From a virus, in the IMG/VR virus record IMGVR_UViG_3300010150_000052, positions 1 to 38,004 of that record: a stretch of 38,004 nt of DNA, one strand, 5' to 3'. The position numbers and the translations under genes are program-made. Below, in pieces: positions 17,186-36,192 of this stretch. The notes under the pieces were generated by a model. It was not told the origin of the DNA. It saw only the letters and a program-made list of their open reading frames with translations, and searched no databases. The number at the start of each line of letters is the position of its first letter. Position 1 is the first letter of the stretch.

Positions 17186-17198
17186 TTGCAGGAGAAAG

Positions 17199-17326: not shown

Positions 17327-18433
17327 TCAAAGGAGCAGGCTGTCCACAATCGACTTGATTGAGTCACCGGAGGTCTTCCAGTCAGCGTTGCCCCGCTTGT
17401 ATGGAAGGAACCAACCATTGGTTGGAGCGTTTGGGTGAGTCATGTCAGCAGTCGGGTCCACGAAGTAATCGTGAAGCGCTTCGATGGTTTCATCGGAGAC
17501 ATACTTGCGAAGGTCATGGTCGAAGGTGACGACGCCAGCCTTGACAGCCACGACGCACCATGCAATTCCAATGGTGATGGAGGACTTTTGGTCCTTCAAC
17601 ACACTGGAAGCCCAATCACGGTTGCCACCTGTGCCTTTTCGCCATGAAGCGAGGCCAGCGAGGTTTGCGCCACAGTGCTTTGCGACCTTCTGCAAGAAGT
17701 CAAGCGGACTGGTGAGGTTGAATCCTTTGCCAGTGATGCTGATGCCGCCGTCCTTCTGCGAGCCGTTGCGATAGAATCGCTGAGCGCCGCTGTTGAGAGC
17801 ATTGTCGGAGCCAGTGAAAGCAAGGATTGCTCCTTGAACCATCGCTGACCTGTCAGCAGGAGTGCCTTCGACCACTGCGATGATTTCCTCAAAGGAAACC
17901 ATGTCGGTGGATTCGACAGACGCTTCACTGCTTCCGAGAAGGTCTTCAATGTCTTCTTCTTCAAACACTGGTTCTTCGGCTGGTGGTGCGATGTCTTCTT
18001 CGACGAACTCTTCGTCGTCGTCGTCGTCGTCGTCGCTGAGCCAGTCTTCGACAAGTGGTGCAAAGAAGTCGTTGAGACGACCCTTGAGGCCTTCGTTGAG
18101 AGCCTTGTCGATGCGGTATTCATCGAGCATTGCCAAGACGCTTTCGGAGAGTGCTTTCGCTTGGCTCTTGTTGAGTCCGCTCTTCCGGTTGTTGTCCCAC
18201 CATGTCTTGATTGAGCCAGTGGCAAAGCCATGAGACGCCACGAAGTGGGCCACTTGAGCCGCCAACTTCGGGTTCATCATGAACTGCCTGTGGTTCTGTT
18301 CAGTGTTCGGTTTCTTGCCTTCATCAACGATACCACGAGTTCCGAAGACTCGCAGACCACCGATGAGGTGTATTGCTTCTGTTCCTGTTGCTTGGTTTGT
18401 TGTTCCCATGTTCTCACATCGTTGCTCGGTCAT
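17327..18433 (-). CDS. Acidic-linker protein with two EED motifs (368 aa)
   Basis: Three parts: residues 1-130 helical (QNHRQFMMNPKLAAQVAHFV onward); residues about 135-170 a very acidic linker with a run of Asp followed by EEFVEEDIAPP and PVFEEEDIEDLL; residues 175-368 a mixed domain (TSPLDFLQKVAKHCGANLAG, then an AWCVVAVKAGVVTF segment). The acidic motifs match those in four other proteins. Family not recognised. The start at 18433 lies about 35 bases from a TTATAAG box; an internal ATG at residue 9 is the alternative. It is the first gene of the leftward arm, probably expressed early. Confidence 0.6.
   Translation of the reverse strand: MTEQRCENMGTTNQATGTEAIHLIGGLRVFGTRGIVDEGKKPNTEQNHRQFMMNPKLAAQVAHFVASHGFATGSIKTWWDNNRKSGLNKSQAKALSESVLAMLDEYRIDKALNEGLKGRLNDFFAPLVEDWLSDDDDDDDEEFVEEDIAPPAEEPVFEEEDIEDLLGSSEASVESTDMVSFEEIIAVVEGTPADRSAMVQGAILAFTGSDNALNSGAQRFYRNGSQKDGGISITGKGFNLTSPLDFLQKVAKHCGANLAGLASWRKGTGGNRDWASSVLKDQKSSITIGIAWCVVAVKAGVVTFDHDLRKYVSDETIEALHDYFVDPTADMTHPNAPTNGWFLPYKRGNADWKTSGDSIKSIVDSLLL
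18012..18035 (-). repeat. Trinucleotide run coding for Asp
   Basis: Eight TCG units (plus strand), coding the Asp run in the acidic linker of the gene at 17327-18433. A candidate length-variable site. Confidence 0.85.
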
Positions 18434-18813: not shown

Positions 18814-18830
18814 CCTAAAAAAAATATGCT
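18814..18830 (+). promoter_or_regulatory. Candidate TATA-like box for the rightward arm
   Basis: The run aaaaaaaatatgc lies about 55 bases before the ATG at 18883, a distance that suits a TATA box followed by a leader of about 30 bases. It also supplies an in-frame ATG at 18826, which is therefore more likely promoter than start. Confidence 0.35.
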
Positions 18831-18882
18831 AAAATTCCCACCAACCGCTACCTTCAAGGGTAGGCTCGTCGTGCGCTTCATC

Positions 18883-21800
18883 ATGGGTCGCTTCATCCGC
18901 ATCGTTAAGGCTGACGAAGCGCCTCGCAAAACCAATAAAAACTACGCTCAAATGAACGAAAAAGAGCGTGCCATTTTCGACGGGCAGGTTGCTTTGAGGC
19001 CCTACTTACAGAACCTCATGAAAAATCCGCCCATGAAGGATGATGAGATTGACTATGACGCGCTTTACAGTGACATAATTTACGCGAATAATCACATGTT
19101 CGCTGAGTTGTTTGATTTGGACGATGATGCGCGATACAAGGCCATCAAAGACGAAGAGGGCAACATCACCACACCGAGCATCATGGCTCTCCCTATGCTC
19201 ACACAGCCCGTACTGACTGCTCTTGATGGTATGATTAAGCACTTCGGTGAAGAATTAGGGTTCCGCAAACAAATGGACGAAGAGGACCATGGTTCGCTTG
19301 AAGATTTCATGAAAAAGAATCGCGTCCCGAACCAAATAGGCAAATGGATGCGCGAAGGCATTGATGCAAGTGGACGAAAGCGCGAACAGCAACAGAAGGG
19401 CGTGCTGAACCACTTGAAAAACAAGAGTAAACACCCGATTAGCACATCGACTTTGAGAGACATGGAAGACATCCAAGTCTCCCCGCGTGCTGTTCGTGTT
19501 GTACCGTCGCGTGGCGGCACTATGCCCGATTACTTTCAACAACAGATGGATGAGGCGTCGGCTCAAGGGCGAAAAGCGTTGAGTGAATTGACCGCTGACG
19601 GAAGATACACCACTGATGAAGGGAGAATGGAGGCCGCGCGTAAACTTTATGAAAAAGTCTTGCCGCAAGTTGATTTCAAAACCATGGATTTGGAAGAGTC
19701 AAAGGTTGCTTCATCCGATGTAGCAAAATGGCGCAACTTGATAACCAATAAAGCGCAACAAGAAGGAGTCAGTGAGAAAGATGCAGTACCACTGGTGCAA
19801 GAAGATGTGAACAACTTCATGAGAATTTTCTTACAAGAGCGCGCAATTGGAAGCGCAGGGCGTGGTGGCAGATTTGGACGCGAAGCGATTGCTGGACAAG
19901 GACCCGATTTCGTTACTCACGCTTTCCATCGAGCCGCGAAGAATGTCGGTCGAAGCATAACGCAACCTAACGCTGACGAAAGATACGCTGAGCCTTTCAT
20001 AAAAGACCCTAACAACCCAACATCAAAGAAAAGGAGGTTGGAGATTGCGGATGGTGATATAGAGGTTGAAGATATGACCGGATTGCATCCTGCACTGCAA
20101 AGGGCGTTGAGTGAAACTGGTATCTTCCGAACAATCAATGAAGCCGAAGGAGTGAGCAGACAGGAGACGGCTGACTTAACAGCAAGCGGTACACAGATTG
20201 CTGAGAAAGGCGGTGAGAAAACCGTAGGTACTCAACTCAGTGATATTAAATTAGACACACCTCAAGACCAAGCACGCGCGCGTCGTTTTATCTCAAGCGA
20301 CCGTCAAGGAGAGCAGAAAATCAAATCGGATTATCGCCTCAAGGACTTAGAGAACATGGTTCTCTTCGGCGACATGACGAATGATGAATATCAAGTTCAC
20401 TACAATCAAATTTTGAATGATGTGAGTGGAAGGGCATACAACCCTACATATTTCAGTGAAATACCCGATGGCTCCGATTTCCCCGAAGGACACCCATACC
20501 GTGATTTGTCGGCTGGTGAAATTGAAGAGAAATCGCGAATTTTCATGGACTTGCTCGTAGGTTCGGGTAGGCACATGATGCAATTCAATAACCATTTGGA
20601 AAAACTCGGCATGGACCGAGGCGAAGTGGAGAAACTTGCGCTTCATGCAGATGACATGGACCATCTTCACACAATACTTCATTCCGATGACCCTTACGCT
20701 GAGTTGGGGCGATTCAATGATAAAGATAAATCGCGATACGAACGCGTATTGGAAACAGGTTTGAAGCCCGGATACTTGAACAAACTAAACCACGACTTGC
20801 TTGATTTGCGCAAGACTGTTTCGGAAATAGGAATCGACCCTATTGATATTGCCGAAATGGGAATGGAGTACGCGAAGAGCGGATTCTCCGTACAAGGATA
20901 CAGAAACGGTTTCATGAAACTTCTTGGTAAATTCGGTGGCGATGTATCCAAGGGGGCCGTTTTGAGAACCCTGTATGCTTGGAAGCGCTCGAATGATGCT
21001 CGCGCCAAGGGTCTTGCTCGGCATCAAGAGGTCAAGGAGCAAAAACAGCAATTCCGAGAGCACTATCAAATGTCACCGGAAGAGCGTGTGGAAAACAAAA
21101 TTGAGAAAGAGGCGTGCAAAGCGTGTGACATTAAGCACTTCGCTAATGAAACCAAGGAAGAGGCACAAGGACACCACCCATACCGCCCCCGTGGTGTTTC
21201 ACCTTATGCTCTTTCGCGAATTTACATGCCCGAATTGGATTACAGGTGGGATGATGATGATTCAAGAAGTCGTAGCATTCCACTGATGGGTAATGATGAT
21301 GAGATTTCTCTTCTTACTATCGCGAAATACATCTTCGCCGATGATGATGATGAGTACATTGGACAAATGTTGCGCAGATATGGGTTGACTCAGCGAGACG
21401 GGTCACCTCTTCAAACCGACGATGGTGTGATAGACACAAAGGGCATTGACCGTCGCGGAGGCGAACTGAAAAAGTATTTGAAAAAGCAAATCGAGAAAGC
21501 CATCGTTCATCCTTCTTCACCGCATCATGACCGAGCCGAAGCAATCGGACATGAGTTTGGTCTTGATATGCGCGACCGTCCGCGAGGTAAGCGGGGGGCG
21601 GCACGCAGAACACCTCATGAAAGACAGGCATTGGGGTTAATTCACGCGTCTGCTTTCCAAAACGACGCGCAAAGAGAAGAGTCGCGTATTAGAAACTTGA
21701 CCGCCGCGCAATTTAGTGGAGTTGTGGAAGCCTTTGATATTCTTCAAGACATAAAGAGTGGAGCGTTGACGACGCCCGAAGGGAAGCGCATCAATCTCAA

Positions 21801-24800
21801 ATCGCTGACAAAGATGGATAGGAAAGGGAATGATAGGAGCAGAAAAGAGCGACGAAAGTTCATTGCCTCTATGTTCGGAGAAGCAAACGCCGCGAAAAGG
21901 GCCGAAAGCAAAGCGCGACGCTACAATTCCTTTTTGCAACACATTCAACCATCAATTGACGAATGGGAAGATTATCAAAAGAGTTTCAAAGAAGAATACG
22001 GCCAGCGTATGGAGAACGGTGACTTGAGTAAAAAGTCAAACCCCGAAGGGCATGCGAAATTGAAAGCGCGCTTGAAAGAAATGCGCGAACTTGCTAAGCA
22101 AGATATTCTTGCAAGCATGAACCAAATTAAAGAAAAGAAGATGCGGCTTGCTAATCGCGGTGTGGCTGGTCGAGATTATGTTGAGGTGAGCGCGAAAGAT
22201 TTCCACTTACATGGCGTTGTTTCAAACGGCATGAAAATCAACATTGGTGGGCAAGAGAATGCTGTTGTTGATATTAGACCACCAAAATACGATGACCAAA
22301 ATTACGCACTGAAACTTGAGGTTCCACTCACACAAGATGTTCCAGTAGCCAATGATGATGATTTCCATGAAGACAGTGGAATGCAAATCACCGAACCCAA
22401 CCATAGCAACAAACTAATATCGTTTGAAATGAGAAGCGCGGCTGAGAAAAAGGCGCTCAATGGTGAGATTGAGAATTTACCGGAATTCCTCAAAACTATC
22501 AAAAGCAGGGCGGGTTCGCATGATAAGACTGCTAATCGCTTAGCGAAAGATGTGGATTACGACAATCATCGTACAGAACAAGCCTTCGGCGCGTTCCTCA
22601 AAATCGGTCACCTCTTAGCGCCGCTTCTTGGTAAGAAAGATGACCAACACTTGAGGAATAAACTCAGTGCGCTAACGACGCAACTTTACACATCCAAAGA
22701 CGGCCTTCCTATTCCCGATGTATTCTTGGCTGACGGCTACGGAGACGAACATCGAAGTTTCATGTATCGTCCCGATGAATACATGACGGGCGCTATCGGA
22801 CAAAGCGTTGGAACAGGATTGACCCACCAGCAAAACAATCGACTTTTGTATGGATTGACTGACGCTGAAACGCTACAAGCGTTGAGCCTCAAACAACATG
22901 GTCGTAAATTAACCAAAAAACAATTGACACTCGCGAACGATGCTTTCCATAATGAAGATAATGCGGATTGGAACAAAGAACTCATAGACGATGTGCTTGG
23001 TACACAAGAAGAGGAAATACCTCAAGAAGAAATACCCCCAAGTGGTAAGATGAGAGAACATCAAGTCCGAGAATTGTTACAGCGCGAGGCTTATGATACG
23101 GAAGGGAAGCAAGAAAATTGGGTGATGAACAGTGCGACAGGATGTGGCCTTTGCGGAGGTAGTGGAAAGGTCACTATGGATGATGCGATTTCATTCATTC
23201 AAGCACACAACCCTGCTTTGGCTGGTGCTAACCCTAACGGCCCGAAGATGCAGGATTACATCCATAAGAATCTGCGCGCCACGAATCACGGTGATTTTGA
23301 TAGCCATCATTCGGACATGCGAGGGCATGAGTTCCCCGGAGTTGCTTGCCCCGAATGCGACCAAGAACACCCCGACGCCGAGGGAGGAAGATGTTCGGAT
23401 GGTATGTGCGCGCATTGTCACGGTAGCGGTTATCTTGACCCCGACCAAGTGGACGAATACTTCGGGGGTTATGTCGATGAAGAAACAGGTGAAGTTTTCC
23501 ATGGACACAAGCACAGCCCTCACTACGGAGAACATTACGATGAAAATGGTCTTAACGCTATGATTCAACAACGGCTTGATGAAGAAGGTGTTGGTAAAAC
23601 AGGACGCAATAATTTCACTGCGAAAATGCATCGCGATGCGGTCGAAAGGGGGTTAGCATTACCTCTCACTAAATTGAAAACCATTCAAGCGTTGAACAAA
23701 GAGCGTTACGCTAAGAAAGCCAAGATTAAGATGACTGAGAAGGATTTTAACGAGAGTGGATACTATTATTCTAACGCATTCAGTGAACGGAGCAAAGCGC
23801 CCGAAATAAGCGACGCGAAAGTGAATCCCATAGATGATGCTATGGGTGTAATCTCCGAATCGCAAGAAAAACTGAAAGGTTTGCGAGACGCGCACCATAA
23901 CAATGAGATATTAAAGCGCGCAGAAGGGATGGCGGCTAAGGCTATCAATAACGGAGCAAGCGAAGAGAAGGTCAATAATCTCTTGAGTGTAATTCAAAAC
24001 CACCCTAACATCGCAGGGTCGCACGGTCAACGCAATCACACTGTGCAAACAGCGTGCGCTAAATTGCACAATTTGATGGTCAAAGATTACCCAAAGAAAT
24101 ACAACGAAAAGGGAAAGGCTAACAAAAAACTGTTTTCGCTTGATGATGATAAGGTGCAGTCGGAGTCGGGGATGTCTCATGAGTCGCTTGTTTACAATCA
24201 CGGTCGTTGGTTGACTGACGCTGAAAACGATGAAGGCATATTCGCGCCAAATAGCAAGGCGGAGCCTCATTTGAGTCTCAAAGATTTGAGAGACATGTTC
24301 AAGCATTCAAAACCAATGATGGATGCACTTAATCGCTACCTGCACACATCGAATTTTGACGAAGAAAAGGCGGAGAAGACAAAGGAAATTGTCGGTCAAA
24401 TGAAGAAACCTCTTGTCAAACAAAAGTTGAGTGAAATGTCAAACCCTGCGCTAAGTCAACTTTACGATGAGTTCAATGCTCCCGATGATGTTCGCGACCA
24501 AGAGAACCTTGAAATGGAAGACGGTGAAATCCGTTGGGACCAGTCTTTACTCGACAAATTATCCGCAGAAGGAATATCTTATTCAAGCATCAAAGATTAC
24601 TTGTCACTTGAAAAAGAAGAAGGGGATTCTCCGAGAGGTGGACCGCGTAAGGGGCTTGATGCTGGTCACAAGCGAGCAGTCAATCAAATTGTGAAGCCAA
24701 TGTATGTTGAATTCGCAAGGCTCTCAATGCTGAAGAAGTTCTTAGAATCCTATGATGATATTTCACACCCCAACTTCCACAAGAAAGTTGTTGACGCGAT

Positions 24801-25797
24801 GAAAGCAAATGGCAACAGTGCTGATACGCGCCTAAGTGTCGAGAACTTCTTTGAGACAGTGCAAATGCGAGGCGATTTGCAAACATTTGCTTACAACGAA
24901 GCGGCGCGTATGTTTGGCTATGATGATGAAGAAGACATGGAGCGTTCTATTGATTTGAAAAACACGAAGAAAGATTTCGGTGGCGGTTTAACCAGTGGTT
25001 TGGATTTCAAAAACGATGTATTGAAAAATTCTAAAGTATCCAAGAGTAGTGCGCAAAAGTTGCCATTAGAAATTGACCAACTTTACCAAGACAGTGTTGC
25101 CGCTCAATCCTCAGTGACTGATGAATCTAAAGCAAGAGATGAAAAGATTGTCGCGCAAATGGAAGAAATGGCTCTATTCCGCCACTACCCGAATTGGATG
25201 CGAATGCAGGCTATGACTGACCTCATGGGTGAGAATGGCTATGGAAACGCGAGTGAATTGAGAAAAGACTTAGAAAACGGCGAAGTTTCAGCAGAACTCA
25301 TCGAGCAAATAGAAGGGATAAACGCGAAAGCGACAATGTTCCACCCTACAATTACTTTTGGCGACTATGAGGATTTGGAAACCTACGACGCAGTTGCTTA
25401 TGGTGAACAGCAGTTTGGTGAGAGATTGCAAGGCCCTGCGACACAGCGAGGAACAGTCCCAATGAGTCCTTCTTCGCGACCAATCGGTCAACAGGCGACG
25501 GTTGGACCGCAAGGAGAGCAAATGCAAACGCAACCAAGTGGGACAGCACCTCAGCAGGGTGCGACAGGCAGTACCAGTGATGCAAGAACAAGACTCGGTT
25601 CTCAAGCCCAACAGTTCGCGCAACGCTACCCGCAAGCAGGTGAGGGGCCAGTTCAACAACCGCTTCCGATGACCATCCGTCAGCCATACGATGACAAGGC
25701 GGCAGAACCCGGCCAAGCGGGTGAATTGCCTCCGTTCGCGTTCAAGCCACCGCAATTGCCGCAAAATCGGTTCCGACAAATGCCGGAAGATGATTGA
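18883..25797 (+). CDS. Giant protein with DnaJ-like zinc motifs (2304 aa)
   Basis: A single uninterrupted frame of about 2300 residues. The start MGRFIRIVKADEAPRK is preferred over an ATG 19 codons upstream, which lies within the likely promoter. Most of the protein is charged and helical. A Cys pair, ACKAC, is near residue 745. At about 1421-1515 the frame carries DnaJ-type zinc repeats: CGLCGGSGKV, then CPECDQ, then CAHCHGSGYL. The last 150 residues are Gln/Pro/Gly-rich and disordered. No polymerase, portal, tape-measure or peptidase motif was recognised. First gene of the late arm; a large virion or ejected internal protein is a guess. Confidence 0.8.
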   Translation: MGRFIRIVKADEAPRKTNKNYAQMNEKERAIFDGQVALRPYLQNLMKNPPMKDDEIDYDALYSDIIYANNHMFAELFDLDDDARYKAIKDEEGNITTPSIMALPMLTQPVLTALDGMIKHFGEELGFRKQMDEEDHGSLEDFMKKNRVPNQIGKWMREGIDASGRKREQQQKGVLNHLKNKSKHPISTSTLRDMEDIQVSPRAVRVVPSRGGTMPDYFQQQMDEASAQGRKALSELTADGRYTTDEGRMEAARKLYEKVLPQVDFKTMDLEESKVASSDVAKWRNLITNKAQQEGVSEKDAVPLVQEDVNNFMRIFLQERAIGSAGRGGRFGREAIAGQGPDFVTHAFHRAAKNVGRSITQPNADERYAEPFIKDPNNPTSKKRRLEIADGDIEVEDMTGLHPALQRALSETGIFRTINEAEGVSRQETADLTASGTQIAEKGGEKTVGTQLSDIKLDTPQDQARARRFISSDRQGEQKIKSDYRLKDLENMVLFGDMTNDEYQVHYNQILNDVSGRAYNPTYFSEIPDGSDFPEGHPYRDLSAGEIEEKSRIFMDLLVGSGRHMMQFNNHLEKLGMDRGEVEKLALHADDMDHLHTILHSDDPYAELGRFNDKDKSRYERVLETGLKPGYLNKLNHDLLDLRKTVSEIGIDPIDIAEMGMEYAKSGFSVQGYRNGFMKLLGKFGGDVSKGAVLRTLYAWKRSNDARAKGLARHQEVKEQKQQFREHYQMSPEERVENKIEKEACKACDIKHFANETKEEAQGHHPYRPRGVSPYALSRIYMPELDYRWDDDDSRSRSIPLMGNDDEISLLTIAKYIFADDDDEYIGQMLRRYGLTQRDGSPLQTDDGVIDTKGIDRRGGELKKYLKKQIEKAIVHPSSPHHDRAEAIGHEFGLDMRDRPRGKRGAARRTPHERQALGLIHASAFQNDAQREESRIRNLTAAQFSGVVEAFDILQDIKSGALTTPEGKRINLKSLTKMDRKGNDRSRKERRKFIASMFGEANAAKRAESKARRYNSFLQHIQPSIDEWEDYQKSFKEEYGQRMENGDLSKKSNPEGHAKLKARLKEMRELAKQDILASMNQIKEKKMRLANRGVAGRDYVEVSAKDFHLHGVVSNGMKINIGGQENAVVDIRPPKYDDQNYALKLEVPLTQDVPVANDDDFHEDSGMQITEPNHSNKLISFEMRSAAEKKALNGEIENLPEFLKTIKSRAGSHDKTANRLAKDVDYDNHRTEQAFGAFLKIGHLLAPLLGKKDDQHLRNKLSALTTQLYTSKDGLPIPDVFLADGYGDEHRSFMYRPDEYMTGAIGQSVGTGLTHQQNNRLLYGLTDAETLQALSLKQHGRKLTKKQLTLANDAFHNEDNADWNKELIDDVLGTQEEEIPQEEIPPSGKMREHQVRELLQREAYDTEGKQENWVMNSATGCGLCGGSGKVTMDDAISFIQAHNPALAGANPNGPKMQDYIHKNLRATNHGDFDSHHSDMRGHEFPGVACPECDQEHPDAEGGRCSDGMCAHCHGSGYLDPDQVDEYFGGYVDEETGEVFHGHKHSPHYGEHYDENGLNAMIQQRLDEEGVGKTGRNNFTAKMHRDAVERGLALPLTKLKTIQALNKERYAKKAKIKMTEKDFNESGYYYSNAFSERSKAPEISDAKVNPIDDAMGVISESQEKLKGLRDAHHNNEILKRAEGMAAKAINNGASEEKVNNLLSVIQNHPNIAGSHGQRNHTVQTACAKLHNLMVKDYPKKYNEKGKANKKLFSLDDDKVQSESGMSHESLVYNHGRWLTDAENDEGIFAPNSKAEPHLSLKDLRDMFKHSKPMMDALNRYLHTSNFDEEKAEKTKEIVGQMKKPLVKQKLSEMSNPALSQLYDEFNAPDDVRDQENLEMEDGEIRWDQSLLDKLSAEGISYSSIKDYLSLEKEEGDSPRGGPRKGLDAGHKRAVNQIVKPMYVEFARLSMLKKFLESYDDISHPNFHKKVVDAMKANGNSADTRLSVENFFETVQMRGDLQTFAYNEAARMFGYDDEEDMERSIDLKNTKKDFGGGLTSGLDFKNDVLKNSKVSKSSAQKLPLEIDQLYQDSVAAQSSVTDESKARDEKIVAQMEEMALFRHYPNWMRMQAMTDLMGENGYGNASELRKDLENGEVSAELIEQIEGINAKATMFHPTITFGDYEDLETYDAVAYGEQQFGERLQGPATQRGTVPMSPSSRPIGQQATVGPQGEQMQTQPSGTAPQQGATGSTSDARTRLGSQAQQFAQRYPQAGEGPVQQPLPMTIRQPYDDKAAEPGQAGELPPFAFKPPQLPQNRFRQMPEDD

Positions 25798-25937: not shown

Positions 25938-26450
25938 ATGCAACCAAGCCCTAACTCTTCAAACACAGACGAATTACGCGTATTGGGACTCATATCATTC
26001 GTAAGCATCCTCGTCGGATGCGCGATTGCTGTCTTCGATGCTGAATTATGGCTTACATCGCCCGATACTTATACGAACGCGATTACCTACACCATGGGTG
26101 CGTTCACTTTGCAGGGAATGGCTTACTTCATTTACAAAATGTTGGCACAAGATGGCATGGACCAGCGCGCAGTTATTGCAAACATGCAGAAAAACATGAG
26201 TCGAACCATGCAAGCGCAACAAATGAAATTCGCTCAGCGTCAAATGGAAATGGAAATCAAGAAACAGGAAGCCGTTTTTTCGCAACAAATGCAAAAATTG
26301 GAAGAAGACCCCGAAGTTCAAGATTACATCAAGTTGATGGAAGAAGGTGATGTGCCTGCCCACAAAGCAGACACCAAAAAGCCCATGAAACTGGGTAACC
26401 AAACAGGTCGCAGGAACCCCGATGGTACATACGCTAAGAAAAGGAAGTGA
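25938..26450 (+). CDS. Two-TM protein with coiled coil (170 aa)
   Basis: Starts MQPSPNSSNTDELRVLGLIS after AAGGAGG. Two hydrophobic segments, about residues 14-34 and 46-69, predict a membrane hairpin. They are followed by a long Met/Gln-rich coiled coil (about 75-125) and a basic C-terminus ending KKRK. A membrane anchor with a cytoplasmic or virion-internal helical arm is the natural reading. First gene of the membrane/GTPase cluster; no family recognised. Confidence 0.7.
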   Translation: MQPSPNSSNTDELRVLGLISFVSILVGCAIAVFDAELWLTSPDTYTNAITYTMGAFTLQGMAYFIYKMLAQDGMDQRAVIANMQKNMSRTMQAQQMKFAQRQMEMEIKKQEAVFSQQMQKLEEDPEVQDYIKLMEEGDVPAHKADTKKPMKLGNQTGRRNPDGTYAKKRK

Positions 26451-26454
26451 ATCA

Positions 26455-26691
26455 ATGGGATGGTTGTTCAAAACACCCGGAGATGATGCTACCGAGGCAA
26501 CACTTCGCGCTTTGCACACTCAAAACACGCTTGACACTTATTATGAAAAGGGAAAGGCGCTGGTGTTGTGCGTGATAACAGGGTTTGTGACTGCTTTGAG
26601 TGTGTCTTTTTTTGAATTGCATGCTGATGTGAGCATTTGGGAGAACACTGTTGAGTGGGTTTACAATAAAGTTCGCGGTTGGGTGACATAA
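26455..26691 (+). CDS. Single-TM small protein (78 aa)
   Basis: The ATG at 26455 is chosen because it follows AAGGAAGTGA, while the frame's earlier codons lie within the previous gene. Product MGWLFKTPGDDATEATLRAL continues to one clear transmembrane helix at about residues 34-53 (ALVLCVITGFVTALSVSFFE), then a short soluble tail. Its TAA shares a base with the next start (TAATG), implying coupled translation with the GTPase. Confidence 0.65.
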   Translation: MGWLFKTPGDDATEATLRALHTQNTLDTYYEKGKALVLCVITGFVTALSVSFFELHADVSIWENTVEWVYNKVRGWVT

Positions 26692-27413
26692 TGGTTGCAA
26701 CAATGGCTGGTAGCGCGCTTATGGGCGCGGTTGTGTACGGTCGTGAACTGTATAACTACCTAAAGCCGCGCAGAATAGGTGTTTACGGTCCAACGCAAGT
26801 CGGAAAGACGACTCTCGACCAATTTATGCGCACTCCGGGCGAGATGGATGACATTGAAGAGCGCACCATGCATGCAAAAAGGCTCATTGGCGGAGGATAT
26901 GTTCTTCCGCAGGCTACGCGAAAGCGTCTTCGCTGGAAAGGAGAGAAGAGAGTGGTTCATTCTTCCGATATTGGAGGACAACAACGCTTTTGGAACCTAT
27001 GGATTGACGATATGGTGGACAGACAAGTGGAAATTGTTGTATTCATGACCGATACGCGCGTCTTAGGAGGCCAAGGGGCGAAAGTTATTGACGCGATTGG
27101 TGGTTTTGAGTTCCTTGTTGATGCTTTAATTGAAAAAAGATGGAAATACCGCTCTTTGAAGACTCGAATTAGAGGAAAAAGGTACACTCCTAAGCAAATT
27201 TGGCTGGTCGCGAACAAAGCAGACGAGTGGTGGGATGAAAATGCGAACATATTATGGCAATCTAACCGATTACGCGAGCATAAAGTGTTCGATGTGCATC
27301 GTCCGGCCATGCGAAGACTACAAAAAGCAGGTATTCCATGTCGCGTCAGCATGATGGCGACTAAAATCGGCTGGAATGTCGAAAAAACGATGATTGAAAT
27401 GCTCAGTTGGTGA
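26691..27413 (+). CDS. Arf/Ras-like small GTPase with hydrophobic N-terminus
   Basis: A 240-residue protein with the small-GTPase motifs in order: G1 GPTQVGKT at 33-40, G3 DIGGQ at 93-97 (the Arf/Sar/Rag form, followed by FWNLW as in Arf LW), G4 NKAD at 175-178, and a likely G5 region, MMATKIGWNV, near 217-226, where Ras proteins have SAKTGENV. Residues 5-17 are hydrophobic (MAGSALMGAVVYG), suggesting a membrane-inserting helix as in Arf. The Gln of DxGGQ, catalytic in Arf, is present. It binds and probably hydrolyses GTP at a membrane. The start follows GGGTGA and overlaps the previous stop by one base. Partner and role unknown. Confidence 0.8.
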   Translation: MVATMAGSALMGAVVYGRELYNYLKPRRIGVYGPTQVGKTTLDQFMRTPGEMDDIEERTMHAKRLIGGGYVLPQATRKRLRWKGEKRVVHSSDIGGQQRFWNLWIDDMVDRQVEIVVFMTDTRVLGGQGAKVIDAIGGFEFLVDALIEKRWKYRSLKTRIRGKRYTPKQIWLVANKADEWWDENANILWQSNRLREHKVFDVHRPAMRRLQKAGIPCRVSMMATKIGWNVEKTMIEMLSW

Positions 27414-27417
27414 CAAA

Positions 27418-28302
27418 ATGCTCGGAAATACACCCCAAAATGACCTATTACGCCTTGCCGCACAGACCCAAATGAGCCTTGCACAGATGCAACAACAGGC
27501 TTCTGCACAGTCCGCGATGAGTGAAGCAAGCACTCACATTGAAGTTCCGCAGGTAAATTTCTATCCTTCGCAACATCCTAACCCCAAAAAGGCGCGAAGA
27601 AAGGACATTAAGCAAGCGTATCGCTTGTTGAAAGGCACAAAAAGGTCTATTTTGTCCCCAAGAAGGTGGTTATTTGGTGGAAAGTACCGATACAACACCA
27701 ACACCATGCGATGTGTCATTGATGGTTGCGATGTGGAGCATCTTTTGCGCATGGCGGGTAACATTTACGAACAAATCATTGACGAAGAGACAGGACAGTC
27801 ATTATGGGACATTTACTTCAAAAATCCGGTCACAGGAGAAGCAGAAGCCTTTGTAGCGCGCGAAAATGTCACAAGTGGGCGTAAATTACGAGGAACTTAC
27901 TGCCCCGAACACCTTCACCTGTACCATTTGCTCTGCAAGTGGGAGAAGGAAGAAGAGGCTGAGCAAGAAGCGAGTGGAGGGACGCTCAAGGCGAAACTAA
28001 AGAAGGGTGTTTCAGTAGTGGCTGTACCAGTCAGCAGTATCAAAAAGAAAGACAACACCCCTCCGATACTTGCAAAATATGAGCAATTTTTCGCGATGTT
28101 GAAGCAAGACAACATTCCAGTGACGCATTTCACTAATACCGCGACAGGTATGAATGATTTAGTGATGATTGTCTTTGATATGCGACAATTCCAAGCAGGG
28201 AATAACACGCGAATGCTACAAGATGCTCTCGCAATGCATCAAATGCAACAACAAAGCATGCCTATGCCGCTACCGCAACAACAAAATGAGGGTAGCGCTT
28301 GA
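27418..28302 (+). CDS. Zinc-site, Gln/Met-rich protein (294 aa)
   Basis: Starts MLGNTPQNDLLRLAAQTQMS at an ATG 6 bases after GGTGA, just past the GTPase stop. Residues 1-40 are Gln/Ala-rich. A possible metal site is formed by C99, C104 and the C162, H165, H167, H170, C173 group. Residues 180-205 are Lys/Glu-rich and the C-terminus is again Gln/Met-rich. No family recognised. Position directly after the GTPase makes it a candidate partner or effector. Confidence 0.6.
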   Translation: MLGNTPQNDLLRLAAQTQMSLAQMQQQASAQSAMSEASTHIEVPQVNFYPSQHPNPKKARRKDIKQAYRLLKGTKRSILSPRRWLFGGKYRYNTNTMRCVIDGCDVEHLLRMAGNIYEQIIDEETGQSLWDIYFKNPVTGEAEAFVARENVTSGRKLRGTYCPEHLHLYHLLCKWEKEEEAEQEASGGTLKAKLKKGVSVVAVPVSSIKKKDNTPPILAKYEQFFAMLKQDNIPVTHFTNTATGMNDLVMIVFDMRQFQAGNNTRMLQDALAMHQMQQQSMPMPLPQQQNEGSA

Positions 28303-28311
28303 GGTGGTATC

Positions 28312-28908
28312 ATGGCGTGGTGGAACAACAACAACAATCAGCCCGCGCAACCAATGAATGGTGCGCTTAATCTTGGACTCGCCAACGGACAGCAACAAGT
28401 GCCGGGGCAAATGCCCCAAATGGGTGCAAATTACGCGCAACAAGGTTATCAAAACCCATACGCGCCCCCTCCGCCGCCTACTGAAATGGATATTCTTTCA
28501 ATGATGATTACCAGCAATCCGATGATTGACAAGTGGCTGTCGGATAACAACGGTGCTAATATGAACATGCTCATCGCGTTGACGAGTAACATTGTTGCCG
28601 TTTCGATGCACCAAATGCTTTCAAAAGTAAAAATCAAGGAAAGTGACGATGGTTTTTCGTTTGATTTCAGCGGCATTGAAGGTATGCCTACTCCCGACAG
28701 TGTGACGATGGCTCAAACTCAAATGCTCAATGCCGCATCAAACAATGTTCAACAAATGAACATGCAATTCCAACAAATGATTGCAATCGCGAATCAAAGT
28801 TCTATGCAAGGCATGTTGAACACTGCATTAGCCGACCCCGGCATGATGCAAACAGTTGCTTCAACAGGCGGCTCTTTCCTGCGCTCTGCTTTGACAGGGG
28901 GACGATGA
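28312..28908 (+). CDS. Asn/Gln/Met-rich hypothetical protein (198 aa)
   Basis: Starts MAWWNNNNNQPAQPMNGALN after GAGGTGG. The first 60 residues are low-complexity (Asn, Gln, Pro, ending PYAPPPPPTEM) and probably disordered. The rest is a helical domain (DILSMMITSNPMIDKWLSD, then a long Met-rich helix). A virion or membrane-associated structural part is possible. The C-terminus ends TGGSFLRSALTGGR. No family recognised. Confidence 0.55.
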   Translation: MAWWNNNNNQPAQPMNGALNLGLANGQQQVPGQMPQMGANYAQQGYQNPYAPPPPPTEMDILSMMITSNPMIDKWLSDNNGANMNMLIALTSNIVAVSMHQMLSKVKIKESDDGFSFDFSGIEGMPTPDSVTMAQTQMLNAASNNVQQMNMQFQQMIAIANQSSMQGMLNTALADPGMMQTVASTGGSFLRSALTGGR

Positions 28909-28909
28909 G

Positions 28910-29143
28910 ATGGACATGACGAGTATTTATGGCGCATTGAGCGACATGACGAACTTGCGAAAATCAGTCGTCGTTGACATGATTATGGTGCAACTTATCG
29001 CATTGACGCTTGGTTGTTTTCTTATTTTGGTCTTTTCCGGCCCAAAAATGAGTTCAAGTGACTTGAGTTGGATTATTGGCGCGCTCTTCGTTTGTTTCAG
29101 CGCGACTGGCATCGTTTACCGCCGCCTCTCTCAACAAGGTTGA
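28910..29143 (+). CDS. Two-TM small protein, holin-like by size (77 aa)
   Basis: Starts MDMTSIYGALSDMTNLRKSV. Two hydrophobic helices are visible at about residues 20-43 and 52-70, separated by a short polar loop, and the C-terminus is basic. Size and topology resemble small phage holins, but position next to the GTPase cluster suits a virion or membrane-complex subunit equally well. Its 3' end overlaps by 90 bases a gene on the opposite strand. Confidence 0.6.
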   Translation: MDMTSIYGALSDMTNLRKSVVVDMIMVQLIALTLGCFLILVFSGPKMSSSDLSWIIGALFVCFSATGIVYRRLSQQG

Positions 29144-29431
29144 CCATTTACCGATAGGGCATTTGCTGTTTTTGAGCATACTTTTGCCTTTCAAAAAGCA
29201 ACCGCATAATCCGCACCTATTTTGTTGTCGTTCGGGGCATGATGAGCAAATCCACAACCTTTCTTCTCTTTCTTTGAGAGTTGCTTTTTGTCCTGTCAAA
29301 ACATCTTTAGCCGCATGTGAAAGACTCTTCGCCGTGGCTCTCGTCATCGGCACGCCGCCAATTTTAGGCACACGGTTGAGTCGCTTTCTCATAGAAATGC
29401 TTAACGCGGACCGATACTTGGTCTTTGTCAT
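29054..29431 (-). CDS. Antisense zinc-ribbon protein (125 aa)
   Basis: This is the only leftward gene inside the rightward arm. The core reads WICSSCPERQQNRCGLCGCF, then a spacer to SKCPIGKW (Cys at about 62, 65, 73, 76, 78 and 91). That matches a phage zinc-ribbon pattern, CxxC...CxxCGC...CPxGKW, that I recognise as widespread. The start is uncertain: the ATG at 29431 shares the bases CATG with the rightward gene at 29430, and no clear ribosome binding site precedes any candidate. The frame stays open upstream to 29545. Its end overlaps the two-TM gene. Confidence 0.6.
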   Translation of the reverse strand: MTKTKYRSALSISMRKRLNRVPKIGGVPMTRATAKSLSHAAKDVLTGQKATLKEREERLWICSSCPERQQNRCGLCGCFLKGKSMLKNSKCPIGKWSTLLREAAVNDASRAETNEERANNPTQVT

Positions 29432-30095
29432 GGCGGAGCGTGTAACTCGTAGTTCTTGCAAGTTCTGCCAAGACGAAGGTCGCGACTCATTAGAAGAGAT
29501 GATGAAAGGCGGGTTAGTTATCGCCAAGGATTTGGATAAAGACATGGATTGGCGCGAAGGTACAGCAGACCGGCATTTCCGAAATCACATGGGTGATTAT
29601 CACATGGCAAGTAATAGCGAATGTGGATTTTGCACTTCTTCTAAACGAGAAAATCTTGAAGAGGCTTATTTCAATGGCGCGATGACCGCTGATGAAATTG
29701 CTTTGGACATTCAAATACCCGAATCGAGCGTTTATCACCACATCAAACATCACCTCAAACCCATTGTGCAAAAGGGGGCGGCTGAACTCATCATTGTCGA
29801 ATCGGGACAAGAAATGCAAAGCATCCGTAATAATTTATCGCGACTCAACGGCGAACTTGGTCACTTCCTTGATGATGCAGACCGTAACGACCCTCAATAT
29901 GTGCGCAACATTGTTTCGTTACACAAAGAGGTGCGTGAGACGGTGAAAGACATAATGCGCGTACAAGAACGCGCGGCTGGTACAACAAATGAGCACATGA
30001 CTGCTCAAACGATTAACATCCTCAAAGTTGAATTAGCGAAAGAGTCTCCCGAAGTATGGGCGCGTCTTCGCGGCAAGTTGATGGGAGGTGAATGA
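29430..30095 (+). CDS. Tandem zinc-HTH protein, possible small terminase (221 aa)
   Basis: Two tandem copies of one unit. C10-x2-C13-x35-H49-x3-H53 is followed by C65-x2-C68-x35-H104-x3-H108 with identical spacing, and the intervening residues match (R-x2-LEE, G, D, then x-H-x3-H). The second unit includes the helix-turn-helix AMTADEIALDIQIPESSVYHH. From residue about 125 the protein is a long helix bundle (MQSIRNNLSRLNGELGHFL onward). The HTH-plus-helices layout is that of small terminase subunits, which fits a gene block that also contains the large subunit, but the assignment is tentative. The start has only a weak ribosome binding site. Confidence 0.65.
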   Translation: MAERVTRSSCKFCQDEGRDSLEEMMKGGLVIAKDLDKDMDWREGTADRHFRNHMGDYHMASNSECGFCTSSKRENLEEAYFNGAMTADEIALDIQIPESSVYHHIKHHLKPIVQKGAAELIIVESGQEMQSIRNNLSRLNGELGHFLDDADRNDPQYVRNIVSLHKEVRETVKDIMRVQERAAGTTNEHMTAQTINILKVELAKESPEVWARLRGKLMGGE

Positions 30096-31356: not shown

Positions 31357-33101
31357 GAGGTGAAATCATCCTCAAGGGGAAGGGTGTTTACTACATGGAT
31401 AAGGATGGTGTTATGCACCCAATGTCCTTCCCTCCAAAGCATTCACCGCACGACAAAATGTCGCACTTTTACATCAATTCCATAACTGGTAAACCGTTTG
31501 ATGAAATTCCACCCGATGTTCGCTCTCGATTTCCTAAAGAACAAGCCGCGCATTTCCTCGCTAATGAATTAGTCAAAGGGGGACATACGACAGAAGAGAA
31601 AGCGTTGAGAAAAGCGAAAGATATTTTCAACAAAGCGGCGATGAGGTTCAACAAAATCAAGCGCGACAATAATGATGACTTTCACACTGTCCCCATTCCG
31701 TTTGATGAAGATGGTTCTTTACACCCCGAATACGAAAATAACCACTACGGGGCGCATCAATCTCGTCGTGTTCCGACAGCGAATCGACAAACGCGTGACG
31801 AAGAAGGGCGACTCATCAACAATCACGCGAACAACAAAGCACACCCGACGCTTGGTGTTCATCTTGAGTCAGCGGCATTTCACACTCACAAAGAGTTCCT
31901 TGATGAGATTAAAAGTCGAGGTATTGACAGTCAGTTAGGCGCTAAGCAGAATGTGATTGAACCTCAGCAAATTACAGGTGGTGTTACACGCCGCTACAAC
32001 TCAAATGAAAAGGACCCTACCGCTAAAGACAATACAGTGTTTCCTTCACACTACGCAGACGACCATGCGCAGACTGCCGCTTATGGTCAAATATCGCCAA
32101 TGTCTATCGTTGCTATCTTGTCTCAACGACTCCCCGATTTATTCTCCCCAAGCACCGCAGGCGGTATGTCCACCGAAGTGATGAATTCTTTACAAGACCA
32201 AGGATTTGACCAACCTACTGCAAGAGCCATGGCTCGCGCGCCAATCAACCAGTTGCTTTTTGGTCGCGGTAAAGATGGTTCACCGACGGGTTTGCAGACC
32301 GTTATGGCGAATTTGAGAGGGGCTATTGATTTCGACAATCCCGATATTAAACACGAAGTTGCTAAACATCGAGGCCATTTTGCTCCAAAGATTCGCGGAG
32401 GGGACAGAGGTCGCAACAAAGCCGCTATTGAAATTATGGCTATGTTGAAGACTGCGGAGGAACTTGGAATAGAACCCGCGGCTTACACATCTCGCTCAGC
32501 CCCTCCACCATCAGTCATGCAGAACTACATTGAGATTGCATCTCAAGAGGCAAGACAGATTGATTTTGAGGCTCTTGGCGAAGCCGACGGTATGCATGAA
32601 ATGCGAGGTAAAGTCAACAACAACTACGACCATCTTCACGACTCGTTCCCCTCTCATCTAAGCAGTGGTTCGGCAGGTGCTGTGCAAGAAGGCGCAAATG
32701 ATGTGCTTCCACCTCAAGACCCGATTACAACACTGCCCGATGGGAACACACAAAAGCCGCTTGAGGGCGACCCCTACGCAGGGTTTGGTGGTGCGACAGG
32801 GTTTTCCGGTTTTAATCCCAATGATATTCAACTATCCGATGATGACCCGATGGGTATTATCGCGACCATCATGGAGCGCGTGCAATTACACGAAGCAGGC
32901 GGCTCTTTGTTGACAAAATACGACCCTATGGATTCCTATGACATGAATAAACTAAGTCAACAAGTTGGCATGTCAAGTATTGATGTTCGCGCGATAGCCA
33001 TGTCGCTTGGTGATTGGGAGGTTTTAGCGAAATCTTTTAACACGACGCATGATGTGGTTCGCGCTATCAAGAAGTCTTGCGGTGGTGCAGTCAATGGTTG
33101 A
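31353..33101 (+). CDS. Large hypothetical virion-type protein (582 aa, GTG start)
   Basis: GTG at 31353 overlaps the previous stop (GTGA) and follows AGGTGGT by about 7 bases; there is no ATG nearby upstream. Product starts MRGEIILKGKGVYYMDKDGV and is His/Asp-rich in its first half (YENNHYGAHQSRRV). It has helical segments (NKAAIEIMAMLKTAEELGIE), then a Gly/Pro-rich linker near residue 470 and an acidic end domain that includes a helix-turn-helix-like NKLSQQVGMSSIDVRAIAMS. No homology is recognised; the position among late genes suggests a structural or head-associated protein. Confidence 0.6.
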   Translation: MRGEIILKGKGVYYMDKDGVMHPMSFPPKHSPHDKMSHFYINSITGKPFDEIPPDVRSRFPKEQAAHFLANELVKGGHTTEEKALRKAKDIFNKAAMRFNKIKRDNNDDFHTVPIPFDEDGSLHPEYENNHYGAHQSRRVPTANRQTRDEEGRLINNHANNKAHPTLGVHLESAAFHTHKEFLDEIKSRGIDSQLGAKQNVIEPQQITGGVTRRYNSNEKDPTAKDNTVFPSHYADDHAQTAAYGQISPMSIVAILSQRLPDLFSPSTAGGMSTEVMNSLQDQGFDQPTARAMARAPINQLLFGRGKDGSPTGLQTVMANLRGAIDFDNPDIKHEVAKHRGHFAPKIRGGDRGRNKAAIEIMAMLKTAEELGIEPAAYTSRSAPPPSVMQNYIEIASQEARQIDFEALGEADGMHEMRGKVNNNYDHLHDSFPSHLSSGSAGAVQEGANDVLPPQDPITTLPDGNTQKPLEGDPYAGFGGATGFSGFNPNDIQLSDDDPMGIIATIMERVQLHEAGGSLLTKYDPMDSYDMNKLSQQVGMSSIDVRAIAMSLGDWEVLAKSFNTTHDVVRAIKKSCGGAVNG

Positions 33102-34785
33102 AACATGGGAAATAGAATGGAATAGCAGTATGATTGAGCACGGCAGAGATGCTGGAACTATGGAATTTATTTTCGCGAAAGGCGGCAACATCTCCGATAT
33201 GAACTATGTTATGTTTGATACTCAAGACAATACTTGGGAACCACTCATCAAGGCCGTCGCAGAACGCGACAACTCTCATCCCGACATTATCCGCAAGCAA
33301 GTGCCATACGGGGTCACTCAAGATTTCCGCGCGGCACAACCCTATGCTGGTACTGCCGTACAATCCCCTCATCAAGCACGACGACAATACAAAACTCAAC
33401 AAACCATGCAGGGACTTGATAATTATCAACAAGACCCCAATGCAAGGAATGCTATGCAGGCTGGTCTTTACGGAGCCGCCGCTGGACATGCCGCGGCGAA
33501 CACAGGCCGCGCCATCATGGGCGGCGCACAAATGGCAGGTAGGGGTATTGCCGCTGGTGCAAATGCGACAAAGGACTTCGCACAGAACACCGCTGGACCA
33601 GCAATGGGTCGAGCGTATGCTGGAGCAAAGGACTTCGCACAGAACACCGCCGCACCCGCTATGGGCAGAGCGTATGGTAGTGCAAAAGAAAAAACTGGTC
33701 AAGCCATGAGAGGGGCAGGTCGCGGAATGGCCGCTGGTGCTGGTAAAGCACGCGATTTCATGGCCCGAAAATTCCCCGGCATTAGGCAACGAATGGGTAA
33801 CTTCATGCAAGGCGTAGGTGATACTGCTCGCCATGGTATGGATGCTCTCTTAGGTGAAAAAGATGCGACAGGCAAGCGCGTTGGTGACGGCGTTATGGCA
33901 AGAACCATCAAGCGACGCGGCGACCAAAACCAATTAGACCAATTACAAACCGGACGGGCAGGAGAACTTCAACGACAAAAGCAACGCGCATCGCAAGCCG
34001 GACACCAATCTCTTCGCGATGAGCAAATGAATCAATATCAAACTGACTTTGATGCGAATGAAGAAGCAAAAAAGAAGTTGCAAGCAGACATTGATGAGGC
34101 CGGACCTAACGCTGGTTTAGGTGGTCTTCGTAACAAAATCCGAGAGTTGGGCAATAAGCGAAGGGAAAGTTCGCGAACGATTGACCCTGCGTCGGCGGCG
34201 GCGGGAGAAGCGGCGAAGGATGCTATGGAAGAAGGGCCTGTTGAATCAGCGCTCAGTGACCAAAGCCCGAAGCCGTATGAAGAAGAAGATGTGCCAGCCC
34301 CTGTGTATGAAGAAGAAGATGTGCCAACCCCATCCACTGAAATGCCTGCACCCGAAGCAGGCGCGCCTCAACCCGTCGCTGACCCTGCTGAAGAATTTGC
34401 AAGAACGCAATCCGAGAAGATTTTCCGACCGGGCAGTTCGCGAAGGACGGGTTACAATAGACTTCTTGAAGGTGCGCGGAACAAGCCCGAATCTTATGAA
34501 GCGAATGCTAAGAATTTTGGGAACCGAGGTTTTTCTCAGCAAATAGCGGCGGCAGTTGCCGAATACCATGGTTTGACACCTGCACAGGCTGAACAAGTAG
34601 CACAGTCTGCAAAACAGGGTAATCCTAAAGCGAAAGAGATGGTTGAAGAAGCGACGCAAGGCAACGACGAGTTTGAAGAAGAAGATGTGCCAGCGCCGGC
34701 TATTTCAGCACCATTGACACTATCAGCAGACAGCATTGATACGCGCGGATGGAATCTTTTGATGAAGCAATTAGCGATTAGGTGA
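33094..34785 (+). CDS. Ala-rich repeat protein with EEEDVP motifs (563 aa)
   Basis: ATG at 33094 overlaps the previous stop and follows GGTGG. Residues 1-75 form a compact domain (MVETWEIEWNSSMIEHGRDA onward). Residues about 150-215 are Ala/Gly-rich with a near-repeat of 19 residues (KDFAQNTAGPAMGRAYAG, then KDFAQNTAAPAMGRAYGS; a 57-base DNA repeat). A helical region follows, then three acidic motifs: YEEEDVPAPV, YEEEDVPTPS and, 120 residues on, FEEEDVPAPA. The C-terminus is helical. The motif is shared with four leftward-arm proteins. Directly upstream of the large terminase; a head or portal-associated role is possible. Confidence 0.6.
   Translation: MVETWEIEWNSSMIEHGRDAGTMEFIFAKGGNISDMNYVMFDTQDNTWEPLIKAVAERDNSHPDIIRKQVPYGVTQDFRAAQPYAGTAVQSPHQARRQYKTQQTMQGLDNYQQDPNARNAMQAGLYGAAAGHAAANTGRAIMGGAQMAGRGIAAGANATKDFAQNTAGPAMGRAYAGAKDFAQNTAAPAMGRAYGSAKEKTGQAMRGAGRGMAAGAGKARDFMARKFPGIRQRMGNFMQGVGDTARHGMDALLGEKDATGKRVGDGVMARTIKRRGDQNQLDQLQTGRAGELQRQKQRASQAGHQSLRDEQMNQYQTDFDANEEAKKKLQADIDEAGPNAGLGGLRNKIRELGNKRRESSRTIDPASAAAGEAAKDAMEEGPVESALSDQSPKPYEEEDVPAPVYEEEDVPTPSTEMPAPEAGAPQPVADPAEEFARTQSEKIFRPGSSRRTGYNRLLEGARNKPESYEANAKNFGNRGFSQQIAAAVAEYHGLTPAQAEQVAQSAKQGNPKAKEMVEEATQGNDEFEEEDVPAPAISAPLTLSADSIDTRGWNLLMKQLAIR
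34276..34335 (+). repeat. Tandem 30-bp coding repeat (2 copies)
   Basis: Units start at 34276 and 34306, coding for YEEEDVPAPV and YEEEDVPTPS in the protein at 33094-34785. A third, non-adjacent copy is at about 34672-34697. Confidence 0.85.
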
Positions 34786-34791: not shown

Positions 34792-36192
34792 GTGGAATCG
34801 TTATCCCTTGAAGCAATAGAAGAAATCGACTTTGAAGTCGCGAAGCGTGACTTCAAGTTTTTCTTTGAAGAGATTCTTGGGTTTCAACTTTCAACGCATC
34901 ACAATCAATGGTTCAACAATCTTGAATCACACAAGCGCTATTGCGTCAAAGCGGCGCGTGACCACGGTAAATCAACACTGTTCCTCGGCTACATGCTTTG
35001 GAAAACAGCATTCAACCCTAAGACGAAGGCTGTCTTGATTTCACACAGTCTTCATCAGTCCATCCACCACATGCGCACACTCAATGACCTTATTGATGGC
35101 ATACCCTTTCTCGCTAAGATGAAGAAGGCTGACAGTTGGTCAAAGACTTTCTTCGGTTTTAGCAATGGCTCAAACATCAGCGCGAAGTCTGTCGGAGGCG
35201 CTATCCGTGGTATCCACCCCGACCTCATCCTCTGTGACGACATTCTGTGGGGTACAACAGATACTGAACTAATGAGAGTGGCTTCTTGGTTTTACGAAGT
35301 TCTTGTACCTACACTTCACCACACATCCAAACTGATGATTGTCGGCACACCGTTTACTCCGACTGACCTTTACACTGAACTTGAGAGTCGCGACGGGTAT
35401 CTTGTTGAAACATATCCGGCAATCAACGCAAAAGGAATAGCCCTTTGGCCCGAACGATGGGACTTAGAAGCATTGGATGCGCGCAGGGCTGACATGCCTG
35501 CGATTGCGTTTGCGCGAGAATATCTTTGCGAACCTATGGACGATGTGAGCAGTCTGTTCCCTTCGACCGTTCTTCAACTCGCCAAAGACACTACACTCAA
35601 AATTATTGACCGCGAAGTTGGTGACCCCGACGACCAATACTTTGTCGGTTGGGACCCTGCTATCTCTTCCGATAGGGCCGCTGACTTTACTGTAATGGTA
35701 GTTCTTCGTCGCCCATCAACCAACCCCGAACTGCTTGAATTGGTTCATGCAGTGCGCCGTAAGAACATGGATTTCCGAACACAGATTATGGAAATTCAAA
35801 GAATTAACGCGAAGTTCAATCCCGATGTGATTGAATTAGAGGCGAACAACTTCCAGCGGGTCTTCGCAACTGAGTTGCGCGCAGACACAGACCTTCCTAT
35901 CAAAACATTCATTTCCACGCGCCAACGCCGTGAGTCGCTTCTCATGGGTTTGGTATTGCGATTCGAGAACGAACAGATGCGACTGCCGTGGGGTGACGAC
36001 CGTTCTCGCTCGCTGATGGCTGAACTTGAGAAAGAATTGCTGATGTTCGGTATGAGTAAGAAAGGACGACTCGACAGCATCGGACGACACGATGACTTCG
36101 CCATCGCTCTTGCTTTGGCTCATTGGGCTACCACAGAGTTCCGCGAACGAATCGTGGACTTGGATGATATAATGATGGGGCTGTTGGATTGA
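34792..36192 (+). CDS. Large terminase subunit
   Basis: A 466-residue terminase ATPase-nuclease that pumps DNA into the prohead and cuts it. Walker A is ARDHGKST (55-62), in the modified form common in terminases. Walker B is LILCDD (145-150). The C-terminal RNase H-like nuclease begins at GWDPAISS (Asp near 288), with further acids in RAADFT (about 298) and RHDDFAIALA near the end. Length and domain order match the family. The GTG start lies 6 bases after GGTGA. Upstream is a possible small subunit (29430-30095). This gene gives the best evidence that the window is viral. Confidence 0.9.
   Translation: MESLSLEAIEEIDFEVAKRDFKFFFEEILGFQLSTHHNQWFNNLESHKRYCVKAARDHGKSTLFLGYMLWKTAFNPKTKAVLISHSLHQSIHHMRTLNDLIDGIPFLAKMKKADSWSKTFFGFSNGSNISAKSVGGAIRGIHPDLILCDDILWGTTDTELMRVASWFYEVLVPTLHHTSKLMIVGTPFTPTDLYTELESRDGYLVETYPAINAKGIALWPERWDLEALDARRADMPAIAFAREYLCEPMDDVSSLFPSTVLQLAKDTTLKIIDREVGDPDDQYFVGWDPAISSDRAADFTVMVVLRRPSTNPELLELVHAVRRKNMDFRTQIMEIQRINAKFNPDVIELEANNFQRVFATELRADTDLPIKTFISTRQRRESLLMGLVLRFENEQMRLPWGDDRSRSLMAELEKELLMFGMSKKGRLDSIGRHDDFAIALALAHWATTEFRERIVDLDDIMMGLLD

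Follow-up and report, generated by a model that had tools for sequence, protein, structure and literature searches.

A predicted Arf-like small GTPase in a conserved gene cassette of marine tailed viruses that very probably infect archaea

Ras-superfamily GTP switches run membrane traffic in eukaryotes, abound in Asgard archaea and are familiar from giant viruses. The question raised by the locus described here is whether a virus of prokaryotes encodes such a switch as well, and if so, what it might be used for. The window, that is, the whole stretch of DNA that was analysed, comprises 38,004 nucleotides (IMG/VR record IMGVR_UViG_3300010150_000052, positions 1 to 38,004). An initial annotation, made from the sequence alone, had identified an Arf-like small GTPase at 26691-27413, pointed to its GTPase motifs and a hydrophobic N-terminal helix, and proposed a role in virion membrane assembly, host membrane remodelling or entry. 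The features of the region are as follows:

25938..26450 (+), N1, 170 aa: a hydrophobic membrane segment (residues 15-33) followed by a charged, Q/K/M-rich probable coiled coil; first gene of the cassette
26455..26691 (+), N2, 78 aa: a single membrane segment (residues 35-53)
26691..27413 (+), predicted Ras-superfamily small GTPase of Arf/SR-beta-like type, 240 aa: G1 at residues 33-40 (GPTQVGKT), candidate G2 T59, G3 at 93-97 (DIGGQ), G4 at 175-178 (NKAD), G5-like at 222-227 (MATKIG), an extra N-terminal helix (2-24) and an insert between switch I and strand 2
27418..28302 (+), P1, 294 aa: a conserved Cys/His protein (C99, C162 and H165 invariant; clades B/C read CVVCG...GTYCPKH) with a possible zinc site, metal binding being inferred
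28312..28908 (+), P2, 198 aa: a Q/M/P-rich soluble protein
28910..29143 (+), P3, 77 aa: two membrane spans (24-42 and 52-70), holin-like in size only; clade A only
29403..30095 (+), putative small terminase subunit, Cys-rich and HTH-like: the next gene after the cassette in clade A; the start is approximate, as the open frame begins at 29076
34792..36192 (+), large terminase subunit (TerL)

The observation made in the initial annotation is correct. The open reading frame runs from an ATG at 26691 to a stop ending at 27413 and encodes 240 residues. Its start overlaps the stop of the upstream gene by one base (TAATG), and close homologues begin at the same methionine. The motifs GPTQVGKT (within GPTQVGKTT), DIGGQ, FWNLW, NKAD and ATKIG are all present. 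Substitution patterns against seven relatives give a dN/dS of 0.03-0.06 with a dS of 0.9-1.9, so that this is a maintained protein under strong purifying selection.

To determine whether these motifs could have arisen by chance, relatives were collected. A first scan of viral sequences returned 142 relatives and a scan with the G3-G4 segment confirmed 211, which are referred to as clade A. Two distant homologues in a binned MAG led to two further clades: B, with 188 confirmed stretches, and C, with 89. These are minimum numbers of contigs and may overlap. In total, 403 fetched loci carry the family, some contigs having been fetched more than once, and 82 representatives below 88% identity span down to 27% identity. 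In their alignment G33, G38, K39, T40, T41, T48, T59, K78, D93, G96, N175, K176 and D178 are invariant, so the motifs are not chance. The G1 consensus GxxxxGK[ST] is therefore satisfied. T59 lies 19 residues after T40 (18 in Ras), which makes it the candidate for the switch I threonine of G2, but T48 is also invariant and, without a nucleotide-bound model, the choice between them is not made here. DxGG is found in nearly all loci, and NKAD, NKYD, NKFD or NKHD in all full-length members. The canonical G5, SAK, is present in all 82 clade B loci and in 69 of 80 in clade C, while it is replaced by MAT[KRN] in clade A, including the window. The nominal catalytic residue that follows DxGG is Q in 180 of 241 clade A loci and otherwise E, D or H; it is E in all of clade B, and E (63) or Q (17) in clade C. 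One clade A gene (G081:24371-25078) has an in-frame TGA, which may be a sequencing error or real and was not examined.

The window protein alone matches no Pfam family, and in particular there was no match to Arf (PF00025) at E-values up to 1. Instead, the evidence from Pfam comes from its relatives, as the recurrent hits among the 82 members are GTPases: Roc (54 members), MMR_HSR1 (38, best 1.1e-5), SRPRB (26, best 5.3e-5), Arf (24, best 3.6e-5) and Ras (19). These matches are weak and distributed over several small-GTPase families. An AlphaFold2 model built with the 82 sequences (pLDDT 86.4, pTM 0.83) has the strand and helix order of Ras-like proteins, b1-a1-b2-b3-a2-b4-a3-b5-a4-b6-a5, plus an N-terminal helix (2-24) and inserts; it replaced a model from a shallow, 21-sequence alignment, which reached a pLDDT of 52 only. 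Nearly all of the 50 best matches among solved structures in a Foldseek search of the PDB are small GTPases (Rab, Sec4, Ras, Rho and Arf1, with ObgE as one exception), with a target-normalised TM of up to about 0.7.

A different P-loop fold in the predicted structure, such as that of a packaging or AAA ATPase, or homologues without NKxD and DxGGQ, had been named in advance as outcomes that would overturn the GTPase reading. Neither was observed, since the predicted fold is Ras-like and the homologues keep NKxD and DxGG. Terminase, AAA and RecA/Sak4 folds were considered and rejected: the apparent RecA hits in a profile search of the PDB are repeated, P-loop-only matches in fused RecA chains. 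The core of the earlier interpretation, a virus-encoded Ras-superfamily GTPase with an Arf-type G3, is thus supported, with qualifications regarding Arf membership, the N-terminal helix and the proposed roles.

The first qualification concerns placement. Profiles built from Asgard genomes rank as the SRPRB-like set (98.7%, E 3.3e-16), the Arf set (98.3%, 1.2e-14), the Rag set (97.2%, 2.9e-11) and the Ras set (95.8%, 7.3e-9). These are single-pair E-values and the first two sets overlap, so they support "Arf/SR-beta-like" and no finer claim; bacterial MglA was not tested directly. "Arf-like" is therefore a statement of the nearest branch and not of membership. Some Asgard proteins have strikingly similar G3 regions; the closest G3 match seen in cells is in Asgard proteins of about 290-300 aa (L421, L424, L426 and L427, from Asgard genomes), which have a Cys-containing N-terminal part and an Arf-like GTPase domain with DxGGQxxFWxLW.

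The second qualification concerns the hydrophobic N-terminal helix. It exists in the model, but in clade A it is not hydrophobic enough for a confident transmembrane helix (19-residue Kyte-Doolittle maximum of about 0.5-1.1; 0 of 235 reach 1.6), and in clade B it is borderline (86% reach 1.6). Its hydrophobic moment is weak (0.2-0.36) and there is no Gly2, so the presence of the helix does not settle whether it is an Arf-type, membrane-binding amphipathic helix, which is usually myristoylated. Similarly, with weak SRPRB matches in 26 of 82 relatives and an anchor below the transmembrane threshold in clade A, the sequence leaves undecided whether the protein has the anchor-plus-domain layout of the SRP receptor beta subunit. 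The clear membrane proteins are, instead, the products of the two genes just upstream.

These two genes belong to a cassette with the order membrane protein, membrane protein, GTPase, Cys/His protein, Q-rich protein. N1 (19-residue Kyte-Doolittle maximum of 2.68) is present in 227 clade A loci, 97% of which reach 1.6, and matches no Pfam family; N2 (maximum of 2.31) is present in 230. P1 and P2 are each found in 236 clade A loci, and P3 and the putative small terminase gene in 235. The latter has only sub-threshold HTH matches and is named from these and its position upstream of TerL, which was itself identified by PHROG 38 (E 6e-59) and by Pfam Terminase_6N and 6C. In clade A the order N1, N2, GTPase, P1, P2, P3, TerS-like, P5 is kept, with strand, in 226 of 226 loci that show all eight genes, and in clades B/C the order and strand of the five genes are kept in 144 of 144 loci that show all five, with some contigs represented twice. 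P1 (E 2.7e-39) and P2 (90% probability, E 1.4e-6) are homologous by profile match to the genes at the same place in clades B/C. For N1 and N2 homology between clades was not detected, although in B/C a membrane protein of similar layout stands in the place of N1 and a single-span protein of 70-80 aa in the place of N2. The cassette lies upstream of terminase and portal genes in clade A, and directly behind protease and capsid genes in B/C. A block that keeps its order while changing its place inside the morphogenesis region is a functional unit.

Other features of the window surround this block. A 2323-aa protein without a PHROG match (18826-25797, +) directly precedes the cassette, and relatives have proteins of 2400-3000 aa in the same place. 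After the terminase, 36577-37254 (+) carries DUF6321 (3e-15) and DUF5872 (2e-10). A short acidic motif, [FY][VIE]E[ED]D[MVI][PA] (FVEEDMPT, FIEEDMPLP, FIEDDVPT, FVEEDIAP, YEEEDVPAP), recurs in several otherwise different proteins, encoded at 8692-10716 (-), 10793-11320 (-), 14639-16192 (-), 17327-18433 (-) and 33049-34785 (+), three times in tandem in two of them, and may be a shared docking motif. ARAGORN calls a tRNA-Thr(GGT) at 17198-17270 (-), but this is doubtful, as no Rfam family reaches its gathering score in the window.

Which viruses carry the gene was addressed with longer relatives. Three relatives of 103-118 kb were read in pieces, and the relative G003 has PolB, an RFC-like AAA clamp loader, an ERCC4 nuclease, a group II chaperonin, an SU10-type capsid protein, S78 protease and portal. 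PolB is present in 18 of 20 large relatives and the two without it are fragments of 69-70 kb; in two relatives it is split into two open frames (G010:29184-30328 and G012:73771-74918). Clade A chaperonins are thermosomes, with that of Thermoplasma among the nearest solved structures, the chaperonin tested from clade B is GroEL, and four clade C contigs had none at E 1e-10. This repeats the published pattern for Marine Group II viruses, where clade 1 has thermosome and clades 2-4 have GroEL (PMC5332604). Clade B/C loci have a median G+C near 35% and long contigs of about 92-97 kb, close to Aoguangviridae (92.2 kb, 31.5%; PMC10768690). The carriers are concluded, by inference, to be head-tailed magroviruses, very probably of Poseidoniales (Marine Group II archaea); sequence relationship to the classified members OR863078, ON649702 and PP497040 was not measured. 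Hosts suggested by hits to MAGs (Asgard, Maricaulis and Cytophagaceae) were rejected. These are binned viral contigs of 8-18 kb that contradict each other, the Cytophagaceae contig having the length and match of an IMG/VR contig (L020/L084), and such short magrovirus-like contigs in MAGs (L082, L083, L084, L257 and L258) are a source of false host links.

Prevalence was examined as well. Of 30 contigs chosen by capsid gene alone, 27 carry the GTPase, including all 15 of 88 kb or more. The three without it (G078, G080 and G084) end before the place where it would lie, judged from the capsid-to-GTPase distance in G003 (about 23 kb), and are not counted as losses. One contig of 184733 bases (G090) holds two different GTPase genes 91.8 kb apart, about one genome length, and is a joined or chimeric assembly of two related viruses. 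The gene is a core gene, unlike an accessory metabolic gene. This bears on the possibility that the protein is a host-directed effector, a decoy or hijacker of a host small-GTPase pathway (polarity, stress or defence signalling). Giant viruses carry Rab/Ras-like genes, and these are its nearest viral fold matches, but such genes are usually patchy, accessory and near host-takeover genes, whereas this one is locked in a late cassette. This reading is considered unlikely, although Poseidoniales genomes were not examined for a matching pathway.

The best explanation, held at a probability of about 0.5, is that the gene encodes a Ras-superfamily small GTPase of its own, virus-specific family, nearest to the Arf/SRP-receptor-beta branch, which is a core gene of two or more lineages of viruses matching the magroviruses and works as part of one module with its cassette partners. 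In the proposed mechanism, N1 and N2 would form a platform in the host membrane, and the GTPase, through its N-terminal helix and/or by binding them, would dock there in its GTP state. Switch I/II would then recruit P1 and P2, and GTP hydrolysis would release the complex. The module would act late, during head assembly or packaging at the membrane, or in virion release. What the analysis demonstrates is the GTPase fold (as a model) and motifs, the purifying selection, the invariant cassette order, the membrane character of the two upstream genes and the placement in the virion-morphogenesis block; nucleotide cycling, membrane recruitment, partner binding and the role in morphogenesis or exit are inferred. 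GTP/GDP binding, hydrolysis and localisation were not assayed. Placement in a morphogenesis block does not prove a role in morphogenesis, no GAP or GEF candidate was recognised, and nothing here shows an internal virion membrane. The roles in virion membrane assembly, membrane remodelling or entry suggested initially are untested, even though gene context fits a late, membrane-linked role.

The variable catalytic position means that hydrolysis may be slow or use another geometry. It also raises the possibility of a GTP-bound structural protein that no longer cycles, in which the nucleotide only stabilises a scaffold. This is thought improbable, as the nucleotide-contact motifs and the candidate switch threonine T59 are all invariant, which is more than a static binder needs. 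Alternatively, the cassette proteins could be virion components that are packaged or sit at the portal or tail and act on the membrane of the next host during genome entry. The position directly behind the capsid gene in clades B/C, and the same transcription direction as portal and tail genes, fit this view. However, there is no direct evidence for packaging and known phage ejection proteins are not GTPases, making this a doubtful alternative.

A somewhat less remote, but still unlikely, alternative is a working analogue of the SRP-receptor beta subunit, a membrane-bound GTPase that steers the insertion or delivery of viral membrane proteins (N1, N2, P3 or tail/exit proteins) rather than building virions. 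It is favoured by the SRPRB matches, by the SRPRB-like set being the best profile match and by the layout of an N-terminal hydrophobic helix plus an Arf-like G domain, which recalls SR-beta. Against it, the overlapping SRPRB-like and Arf sets are not told apart here, no SR-alpha-like partner is present in the cassette and the helix in the window's clade is too weak for a standard transmembrane anchor. More speculatively, magroviruses could run a dedicated, GTP-switched membrane module, an Arf/SR-beta-like GTPase with its own membrane receptors and effectors, that organises virion assembly or exit on the archaeal membrane. This would be a membrane-trafficking-type switch in a virus of prokaryotes, with the viral GTPases branching near the root of the Arf/SR-beta/Asgard lineage, and it is a tentative reading, not excluded by the data but less likely than not.

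With respect to what is already known, PHROGs contain no convincing relative or family, and a search of 50,697 phage records (INPHARED) returned none at E-values up to 1. Literature searches for small GTPases in viruses of prokaryotes gave nothing relevant, and the papers on magroviruses and archaeal tailed viruses that were examined do not mention a GTPase, although an earlier annotation of this gene is not excluded, since Philosof 2017 and Prabhu 2025, which annotate magrovirus genomes, lay outside this comparison. Within these bounds, no earlier report of a Ras/Arf-type switch as a core gene of a virus of bacteria or archaea was found. Here one is fixed, with two membrane-protein neighbours, in an abundant group of ocean viruses whose assembly and exit are unstudied. 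It provides a concrete, testable handle on how tailed viruses leave archaeal cells and a divergent outgroup for the Arf/SR-beta branch.

Of the known systems, the carriers share with magroviruses (order Magrovirales: Apasviridae, Aoguangviridae) a genome size of 90-118 kb, two opposed modules, a PolB-led archaeal replisome, ERCC4 nuclease, chaperonin and head-tail genes (PMC10160649, PMC12999244, PMC10768690, PMC5332604). The protein shares with Arf/Arl GTPases (PF00025) and the Arf-like GTPases of Asgard archaea a DxGGQ-type G3 followed by an aromatic residue (compare Asgard DLGGQRDFWNLW, from L426/L427), NKxD, the Ras-like fold, a hydrophobic helix before the G domain and a strong profile match. 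It differs from them in lacking the GLDxAGKTT P-loop signature, in inserts between switch I and strand 2 and around helix 3, in Q often being E, in the MAT of G5 in the window's clade, in the absence of a Pfam match for the window protein and in a helix that is not clearly of the myristoylated, amphipathic Arf type. With the SRP receptor beta subunit (PF09439) it shares an Arf-like G domain behind an N-terminal hydrophobic helix and the best profile set, but there is no SR-alpha partner, the helix is weak in clade A and the context is a viral morphogenesis block. The Rab/Ras-like GTPases of giant viruses (Nucleocytoviricota) are likewise virus-encoded members of the Ras superfamily and provide the best 50 fold matches in the viral structure library (BFVD), but these are of eukaryotic Rab/Ran/Ras types, have 10-19% identity and come from unrelated viruses.
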